From a virus, in the IMG/VR virus record IMGVR_UViG_3300034062_002077, positions 1 through 24,063 of that record: a stretch of 24,063 nucleotides of DNA; one strand, written 5' to 3'. Shown here piece by piece: positions 22,516 to 23,223 of this stretch; position 1 is the stretch's first letter; every line of letters starts with the position of its first letter. Made by a program: the position numbers and the translations under genes. A model generated the notes under the pieces. The model was not told where the DNA came from. It saw only the letters and a program-made list of their open reading frames with translations, and searched no databases.

Positions 22516-23223
22516 ATGAGTACAAAGATCATGGCCTTGGTCTGGCCGCTTCAAATGCCGCTGCTGGCAAAATCTGTATATATATCCCTGGCTGATAATT
22601 CTAACGATCACGGCACCTGCTGGCCGTCAATAGCTACTATTTCTGAGCGTGTTTGCGCAACAGATCGAGCTGTACAAAAAGCCATTTTATGGCTAGAACA
22701 AAACGGCGCACTGACCCGCGAAATGAGTACCGGGAGATCGACTAAGTATTTACTAACCCCCGAACAATATTCACCCCCGAACGACGTTCACCCCCGAACC
22801 ACGTTCACCACGCCCCCGAACGTAGTTCACCCCACCCCCGAACCACGTTCACCCCACCCCCGAACGACGTTCACCCTAACCGTAATAGAACCGTCAAAGA
22901 ACCGTAAGGGAACCGTAAATATAAAGCCCGATAATTTGCTGGCCGGAGTTAGCGAAAAAATAGCGCATGATTTTATTGCACTGCGGAAAGCCAAAAAAGC
23001 ACCGGTAACGGAAACCGCGCTTGCTGGAATCAAACGCGAAGCGGAAAAAGCCGGGTATTCGCTTGAACGCGCATTGCAAACCTGTTGTGAACGAGGATGG
23101 GTTGGATTCAAAGCGGAATGGGTTGACAAAAACGTACCAATGGTTGACAAAAACGACGCAAAAACCCGAAACCTGGAAGCAAAACGCATGCTTGGATTTT
23201 TAGACGAGGTGATTGATGTTTAA
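22516..23223 (+). CDS. replication initiator (lambda O-like, HTH type) with embedded origin
   Basis: ATG 22516 has GAGG five bases upstream. An earlier start at 22465 would lie in the hairpin loop. The N-terminal 75 residues form a winged helix like other phage initiators (SVYISLADNSNDHGTCWPSI, then ATISERVCATDRAVQKAILW). Residues about 83-134 are a low-complexity Pro/Thr/His linker encoded by iteron DNA (PPNDVHPRTTF). The C-terminal part (LLAGVSEKIAHDFIALRKAK, then APVTETALAGIKREAEKAGY and CCERGWVGFKAEWV) is the known partner-binding end of this initiator group. It would bind the iterons, open DNA and recruit the helicase loader, probably via the next gene. Length is 235 residues. Confidence 0.88.
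   Translation: MSTKIMALVWPLQMPLLAKSVYISLADNSNDHGTCWPSIATISERVCATDRAVQKAILWLEQNGALTREMSTGRSTKYLLTPEQYSPPNDVHPRTTFTTPPNVVHPTPEPRSPHPRTTFTLTVIEPSKNRKGTVNIKPDNLLAGVSEKIAHDFIALRKAKKAPVTETALAGIKREAEKAGYSLERALQTCCERGWVGFKAEWVDKNVPMVDKNDAKTRNLEAKRMLGFLDEVIDV
22762..22872 (+). repeat. six palindromic iterons GAACNNNNTTC inside the initiator gene
   Basis: Copies start at 22762, 22779, 22796, 22818, 22840 and 22862. Most read GAAC, three bases, GTTC. The first (GAACAATATTC) is the most divergent. Most are preceded by CCCCC and followed by ACC. Spacings are 17, 17, 22, 22 and 22 bases. None is a multiple of three, so the motif is kept while its reading frame changes, which points to a DNA function as the initiator's binding sites. 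Confidence 0.9.
22878..22916 (+). repeat. four direct repeats of AACCGT at 11-bp period
   Basis: AACCGT occurs at 22878, 22889, 22900 and 22911, exactly 11 bases apart and so on one face of the helix, directly after the palindromic iterons. They lead into an A/T-rich stretch (AAATATAAA) that could be where the strands open. Again the reading frame rotates between copies. Confidence 0.85.

Follow-up and report, generated by a model that had tools for sequence, protein, structure and literature searches.

A palindromic array inside an O-like phage initiator gene, probably part of a replication origin, with a layout shared among relatives and a word that appears to follow the recognition helix

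The window analysed here, the whole stretch of 24,063 nucleotides of the IMG/VR virus record IMGVR_UViG_3300034062_002077, carries six palindromic sites inside an open reading frame (ORF) for an O-like protein. We consider it very probable that this array supplies the binding sites of a phage replication origin located inside the gene for its own initiator, with both binding and origin function being inferred. Comparison among relatives indicates that the layout of such arrays is conserved, that the word is variable, and that the word follows the recognition helix of the encoded protein. Given that the word is rewritten together with a swap of two residues in the recognition helix in close relatives, the DNA preference of such an initiator may be readable from its own gene.

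Sites of the form GAAC-N4-TTC occur six times, with starts at 22762, 22779, 22796, 22818, 22840, and 22862 and thus at steps of 17, 17, 22, 22, and 22 bp. Relative to the ORF starting at 22516, their codon phases are 0, 2, 1, 2, 0, and 1, so that all three phases are used. The earlier note had described six palindromic sites at these steps, and recomputation of positions and phases confirmed this description to the base. Iterons 2 to 6 are perfect copies of GAACNNNGTTC. Iteron 1, GAACAATATTC, is perfect only as GAAN5TTC, the form common to all six; the inner C:G pair is missing from one of its sides. Counted over the two strands of the window, GAACNNNNTTC occurs 15 times versus 2.3 expected, with a maximum of 7 in 100 shuffles, and GAACNNNGTTC occurs 5 times versus 0.26 expected, with every copy inside the array. 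When the protein was recoded synonymously 3000 times, no recoding reached 5 sites and the maximum was 3; the array is therefore not forced by the amino acid sequence. The sites, to which no strand is assigned, are as follows.

22762..22772, iteron 1, GAACAATATTC, phase 0
22779..22789, iteron 2, GAACGACGTTC, phase 2
22796..22806, iteron 3, GAACCACGTTC, phase 1; the 17-bp block meets the 22-bp block here
22818..22828, iteron 4, GAACGTAGTTC, phase 2
22840..22850, iteron 5, GAACCACGTTC, phase 0
22862..22872, iteron 6, GAACGACGTTC, phase 1

The product of the gene combines an NH2-terminal winged helix, an iteron-bearing linker, and a COOH-terminal helical domain. It matches HTH_36 (PF13730; E 1.2e-9, 38.2 bits, with a curated cut-off of 25) as well as two profiles annotated "replication initiation O-like" (PHROG 678, E 2.9e-25; PHROG 391, E 3.9e-23). 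No match to Phage_rep_O (PF04492), the sequence family of lambda O, or to RepA_N (PF06970) was found in the window at E values up to 0.1, and a search of NCBIfam yielded nothing useful; PF04492 matches 2 of 83 relatives at 0.01. A fold search gave no ground for assigning the protein to a family: the RepA_N-type domains 4pql and 4pt7 (Z 9.1, rmsd 2.3, 78 residues aligned) were tied with many unrelated winged helices. The iterons encode residues 83 to 119, a linker that AlphaFold predicts to be disordered with low confidence scores, and the sites are confined to this region. The features of the gene, all on the plus strand, are listed below.

22516..23223, plus strand, O-like replication initiator gene, 235 amino acids (HTH_36, PHROG matches, AlphaFold model)
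22516..22755, plus strand, winged-helix DNA-binding domain, residues 1-80 (pLDDT block means 93-98; winged-helix matches in PDB)
22657..22698, plus strand, recognition-helix segment ATDRAVQKAILWLE, residues 48-61 (AlphaFold helix 50-62; covariation, natural switch)
22663-22665, plus strand, switch residue D50 (residue numbering; covariation and sister comparison)
22678-22680, plus strand, switch residue K55 (residue numbering; covariation and sister comparison)
22927..23130, plus strand, COOH-terminal helical domain, residues 138-205 (pLDDT about 91-96 for residues 141-200; PHROG 6451 match, residues 134-218)

Relatives were collected by two routes. For the first, IMG/VR was scanned for three spaced copies of GAACNNNGTTC, which returned at least 120 loci, 120 of which were examined. 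Among the matches listed, 113 of 122 arrays sit in an ORF of at least 60 amino acids, and at 87 of 120 loci the ORF with the array also encodes a winged helix upstream of it. The profile behind the latter count was built in part from those same loci; as an independent measure, Pfam assigned HTH_36 to 56 of 83 aligned proteins (82 nonredundant ORFs from the matches listed plus that of the window). With the control words GTTCNNNGAAC and CAAGNNNCTTG, a winged helix was present in 0 of 41 and 0 of 18 loci, respectively; with GAACNNNNGTTC, it was present in 24 of 119 among the matches listed.

The second, converse route sought relatives with the winged helix alone, the linker being excluded. Most relatives found in this way lack GAACNNNGTTC and have another repeated dyad at the same place. 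A 4-bp dyad with at least three copies in the linker was present in 28 of 38, 28 of 40, and 6 of 11 clusters, compared with 0.2, 0.9, and 0 in codon-shuffled linkers, and the replacement words include GCAN5TGC, GGCAN5TGCC, GTGCN7GCAC, TCCGN5CGGA, and GAAAN3TTTC. The idea that GAACNNNGTTC is universal for the initiator family was rejected, with at least two sites being found in only 1 of 80 loci identified by the winged helix (L422, a sister of the window). As far as these sequences allow a judgment, the rule in this initiator family is the layout and not the word. The earlier note had named as one refutation the absence of spaced palindromes from relatives with the same initiator; they proved to be mostly present, often as another word that fits the relative's own recognition helix.

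The shared layout is apparent in the 370 steps of 130 arrays, of which 230 measure 21 to 23 bp, 36 measure 17 bp, 31 measure 33 bp, and only 5 fall between 25 and 31 bp. Among arrays with both short (14-19 bp) and mid (20-25 bp) steps, all short steps come first in 22 of 25 and the reverse order was seen in none, with the order holding across different words. The suggestion that the change from 17- to 22-bp steps marks two blocks is thus supported by a conserved order. Variable columns in 32 clusters amounted to 32 of 994 in half-sites, 72 of 494 in spacers, and 145 of 1369 in inter-site bases, consistent with the earlier inference that selection acts on the DNA. Half of the 32 variable half-site columns were supplied by the window's own cluster. 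In DNA-found clusters, one member had been picked for having sites, which favours the contrast in half-site conservation somewhat.

These figures bear on the reading of the array as a mere consequence of repeats in the protein, within a linker of low complexity. Some relatives do carry in-phase arrays, at 15-bp steps in enterobacterial phages and at 33-bp steps in the cluster of L388. However, 261 of the 370 steps are not multiples of three and 103 of the 130 arrays occupy two or three phases, as expected from the earlier claim that the DNA word is kept across rotating codon phases. Synonymous recodings did not yield the array, third codon positions are conserved in half-sites (14 of 314 variable, compared with 1114 of 6142 in the winged helix plus COOH-terminus), and the word tracks the recognition helix, as described below. 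The frame, recoding, third-position, and helix-word results together already contradict the protein-repeat reading, which we regard as hardly tenable, and the earlier exclusion of protein repeats is upheld. With the array being instead part of an origin, the linker protein would be a by-product of the DNA, so that the word can be kept in any codon phase that the spacing demands. A separate idea, that rotation of the frame protects the array from losing repeat units, received no support, with variable copy numbers being seen in some clusters of the in-phase kind as well as in some of the rotated kind.

Fresh tests were performed with genome loci and with named phages. Dyads were present in 14 of 47 ORFs evaluated at the genome loci, many of the remaining ORFs probably not being initiators, and arrays were present in 10 of 20 named phages and absent from the other 10. 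Thermus phage Lalka27b (L687:901-1929) has eight copies of GTGC N7 GCAC at 21- to 23-bp steps after the winged helix, and its helix and word fit the helix-word rule; the frame continues without a stop into an O-like gene annotated from 1231, so the annotated start is probably too late. Klebsiella phage ST101-KPC2phi6.3 (L674), Escherichia phage 733R5 (L675), Shigella phage SfII (L676), and Citrobacter phage phiNP (L678) carry TCA N5 TGA-type dyads in the initiator linker that are in phase, for the most part with steps of 15 bp, and so differ from the rotated arrays; their recognition helices have no Arg at position 4.

To compare helix and word, we numbered the helix of the window as A1 T2 D3 R4 A5 V6 Q7 K8 and the half-site from the dyad centre, so that GAAC reads G5 A4 A3 C2. 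From the 162 rows of the table, 20 were excluded (17 clusters without a dyad at the threshold applied and 3 with even-spaced dyads in protein-found sets). Arg at helix position 7 was accompanied by G6 in 40 of 46 clusters, compared with 5 of 96 without Arg7, the rule having eleven exceptions; Ile, Leu, Met, Val, or Tyr at position 7 was accompanied by T6 in 37 of 39, compared with 19 of 103 otherwise. Lys or Arg at position 3 went with G7 in 30 of 43 clusters (14 of 99 otherwise). Half-site positions 6 and 7 were in no search pattern. In the protein-found sets, Arg4 went with G5 in 39 of 39 clusters (4 of 25 otherwise). The seed of the winged-helix profile (51 sequences) had been chosen by a pattern requiring Arg at helix position 4, so the invariance of Arg4 in alignment A3 is circular. 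Lys8 went with A4 in 67 of 68 clusters, compared with 38 of 74 without Lys8, but in the DNA-found sets the search word itself prescribes A4. Among clusters with Arg4 in the A2 set, which was protein-found, the counts were 2 of 2 and 0 of 27.

Shared ancestry was addressed with a tree built without the helix columns, on which pairs were taken along separate paths. Separate pairs for Arg7 and G6 numbered 19.4 in the same direction and 0 in the opposite direction; for hydrophobic or Tyr 7 with T6, basic 3 with G7, and Arg4 with G5, the values were 14.8 and 0, 14.2 and 1, and 9.9 and 0, respectively. Lys8 and A4 did not reach significance in this pair test (5.2 same, 0 opposite, median p 0.06). 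Two neutral controls were near even (7.0 versus 6.6 and 7.0 versus 6.1), and two further controls leaned in the opposite direction, as expected from mutually exclusive residue classes. The winged-helix tree is poorly supported, and its well-supported branches alone leave 1 to 3 independent pairs. Among eight odd-spaced arrays of named phages that were scored, Arg4 occurred with G5 in 4 of 4 and its absence with T5 in 4 of 4, a hydrophobic residue at position 7 occurred with T6 in 2 of 2, and Arg7 occurred with G6 in 2 of 4, with the other 2 of 4 unresolved. Across relatives, residues of the recognition helix appear to track the half-site word, a relation established by comparison and without binding data.

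A natural switch was found among close relatives, a set of 13 distinct contigs (L010 and L422 are the same contig, as are L097 and L697). Among the four sisters with D50 and K55 (the window, L097, L422, and L696), 23 of 24 sites read GAAN5TTC, and among the nine with E50 and N55 (L423 to L426 and L691 to L695), GCAN5TGC was read at 45 of the 45 sites visible; site positions are identical in all sisters with a full array. Over residues 1 to 78, L422 and L423 differ only by D50E and K55N and at 10 of 234 nucleotides. L422 and L424, the latter also with I57V, share 41 of 45 inter-site bases, and all twelve half-sites are changed at position 4. The presence of GAA in the more distant window lineage indicates that GCA is probably derived. 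Shared 200-mers among the E50/N55 contigs (16 of 18 for L695 and L423, 14 of 21 for L692 and L424) were also counted; the nine GCA contigs are close populations, and the switch was therefore counted as a single event that was observed several times. Both sister classes have the partner gene after the initiator gene, and the partner thus probably does not read the word. The change of helix at residues 50 and 55 thus appears, from these alignments, to be accompanied by a concerted rewrite of every site, with the contribution of each residue unsettled.

Three of the sisters depart from the common array. L696 (1098-1517) is a mosaic: its helix is D50/K55, but site 2 of its array is of the GCA type and the other five sites are of the GAA type, as if in transition or recombined. 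In L426 (643-1062), 66 bp, or three 22-bp units, are deleted in frame, and L425 (2498-2917) shows a frameshifting contraction of the array that may be an assembly collapse.

The array is followed by an AT-richer stretch and by a gene that overlaps the end of the initiator gene.

22873..22962, no strand assigned, AT-richer stretch, proposed unwinding element (58% AT; array 38%)
23216..23929, plus strand, partner gene, candidate helicase loader (phrog_6028; weak 1no1 and lambda P matches)

The 90 nucleotides after the array of the window are 58% AT, compared with 38% in the array but already 53% in the rest of the gene; the corresponding 90 nucleotides in relatives are AT-richer than the remainder of the gene in 25 of 26, 47 of 53, and 27 of 33 clusters, a significant difference. 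ACCGT occurs four times in this stretch, at 22879, 22890, 22901, and 22912, at exact 11-bp steps and in rotating phases. RCCGT repeats, often 10 to 12 bp apart, recur past the arrays of A2 relatives, with at least two in 64% of 33 clusters. The partner gene has its ATG at 23216 and belongs to a family, phrog_6028, of unknown function. A profile of 13 homologues matches PDB entry 1no1, "replisome organizer", weakly (E 6e-4, about 76 residues). We take 1no1 to be the helicase loader of SPP1, and any likeness to an SPP1-type system, which comprises an initiator plus a helicase loader (gp38 and gp39), rests on this match. The best structural match of the partner model is the phage lambda loader P (9oa1_Y; Z 8.0, rmsd 6.5, 141 residues aligned, 6% identity), the next row of that search being at 6.3; Foldseek returned no match for the model at E 0.001. 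The partner may thus be regarded as a candidate helicase loader on the strength of weak sequence and model matches that point one way. The earlier proposal of a winged-helix initiator with a partner gene accordingly agrees with the HTH_36 and O-like PHROG matches and with a downstream gene that is weakly loader-like.

We infer that the winged helix of the initiator would bind each 11-bp dyad as a symmetric pair. On this view, the six sites, in a fixed layout of three at 17-bp steps followed by a further three at 22-bp steps (close to two turns of the DNA), would assemble a nucleoprotein complex beside the AT-richer stretch and its 11-bp ACCGT repeats. This stretch would then open, and the partner protein encoded just downstream would bring in the helicase; both steps are also inferred. 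That the array is instead a centromere-like or handcuffing site for partition or copy control, and not a replication start, seems to us very improbable. The centromere-binding proteins TubR and AspA are among the structural neighbours of the winged helix, but a scan of three proteins at this site recognised no ParA- or TubZ-like gene and the family annotation is replication initiation.

Intragenic origins are a known kind, as exemplified by lambda O, pSK41, and pPR9. In phage lambda, as in the window, the iterons of ori-lambda lie mid-gene after the DNA-binding part of O, an AT-rich stretch follows directly (in the window merely AT-richer), and a downstream gene overlaps, this gene encoding the helicase loader P in lambda and a candidate loader in the window. 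The lambda iterons are at steps of 20, 24, and 23 bp in phases 0, 2, 2, and 1, covering three codon phases; steps in the lambda origin thus already rotate the frame, and frame rotation itself is not new. Lambda differs in its iteron word, its four sites, and the absence of a 17-then-22 layout; moreover, lambda O was not significant with the winged-helix profile used here, and the window has no PF04492 match. The available part of a study of Stx phages P27 and 933W describes six iterons inside the O gene that are bound by O dimers and are required for plasmid replication, with only four being strongly bound in vitro and the other two still being needed for transformation (PMC7466680). These phages provide, within what that part covers, a precedent for sites of unequal role, but their O is of the lambda type and the word is different.

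Plasmids of the pSK41 type have origin boxes inside rep, after an NH2-terminal winged helix and encoding the linker, and the staphylococcal plasmid pPR9 has a chimeric initiator with a pfam13730 domain and its own origin, its minireplicon being able to replicate, according to the accessible sections of one paper (PMC5703833). The window differs from the pSK41 type in having no RepA_N match. In Bartonella, run-off replication gene 4 is described as an O-like gene with palindromic repeats upstream of a helicase gene, and the excerpted account provides no word, spacing rule, or recognition-helix link that we could find (PMC3610622). The origin of Francisella phage KIRK has iterons near an O-like position, with no comparable rule in the portion of the article at hand (PMC7924643). 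BstA and its aba element were set aside as a different protein and a different kind of element, as far as the available text of that report indicates (PMC8585504). Our literature search, for which subscription papers were mostly out of reach, yielded no description of a helix-to-word rule, a shared 17-to-22 layout, a two-residue switch, or this array.

Arrays of the GAACNNNGTTC type also occur in host genomes adjoining TetR-type genes, where they are probably operators; the word alone is thus neither origin-making nor specific to initiators. In Actinobacteria, GAACNNNGTTC arrays at 17- to 18-bp steps (L121:1002-1047, L149:6217-6281, L167:2843-2889, L125:1246-1292, and L169:1346-1392) neighbour a TetR gene (L121, L125, L149, and L169) or an MFS transporter gene (L121 and L167). 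In Alphaproteobacteria, triple arrays resembling TGAACNNNGTTCA occupy intergenic positions next to a PspA/IM30 gene (L145:1556-1625, L158:1751-1820, and L188:5927-5994) or a TetR-like gene (L146:6657-6724), with steps of 22 to 23 and 35 to 36 bp and the look of TetR-type operators. It could accordingly be argued from the host arrays, and from the frequency of winged helices among repressors, that the sites are an operator by which the protein shuts down its own operon or halts elongation within its gene, with replication starting elsewhere. We find this unlikely: the array begins mid-gene (median position 0.40 of the ORF, quartiles 0.36 and 0.46, 130 arrays) and not at a promoter; an origin is in keeping with the AT-richer stretch, with a partner that is loader-like, and with the precedents of lambda, Stx, pSK41, and pPR9; and autoregulation could coexist with origin function. 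The helix-word and sister-switch figures are independent of the origin reading and depend only on the protein reading these sites.

Most winged-helix proteins have no known natural target, which makes their binding specificity difficult to predict. The initiators studied here appear to carry their DNA targets within their own genes, so that sequence alone could supply many protein-DNA pairs. The sister switch provides a minimal pair, of two residues and twelve half-sites, for co-change of initiator and origin and for the sorting of phages into replication-compatibility groups. We lean, with only modest assurance, toward the view that these initiators constitute a readable specificity code, in which the gene spells both the helix and, in up to three frames, the word, and in which one or two substitutions plus concerted rewriting of the array change replicon specificity. 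The splitting of words may result from pressure to avoid being cross-recognised by other phages or satellites resident in the same host. Elsewhere in the window, PHROGs identified genes for a tail protein (6410-7114), an amidase (7081-8640), and an Erf-like annealing protein (19775-20512).
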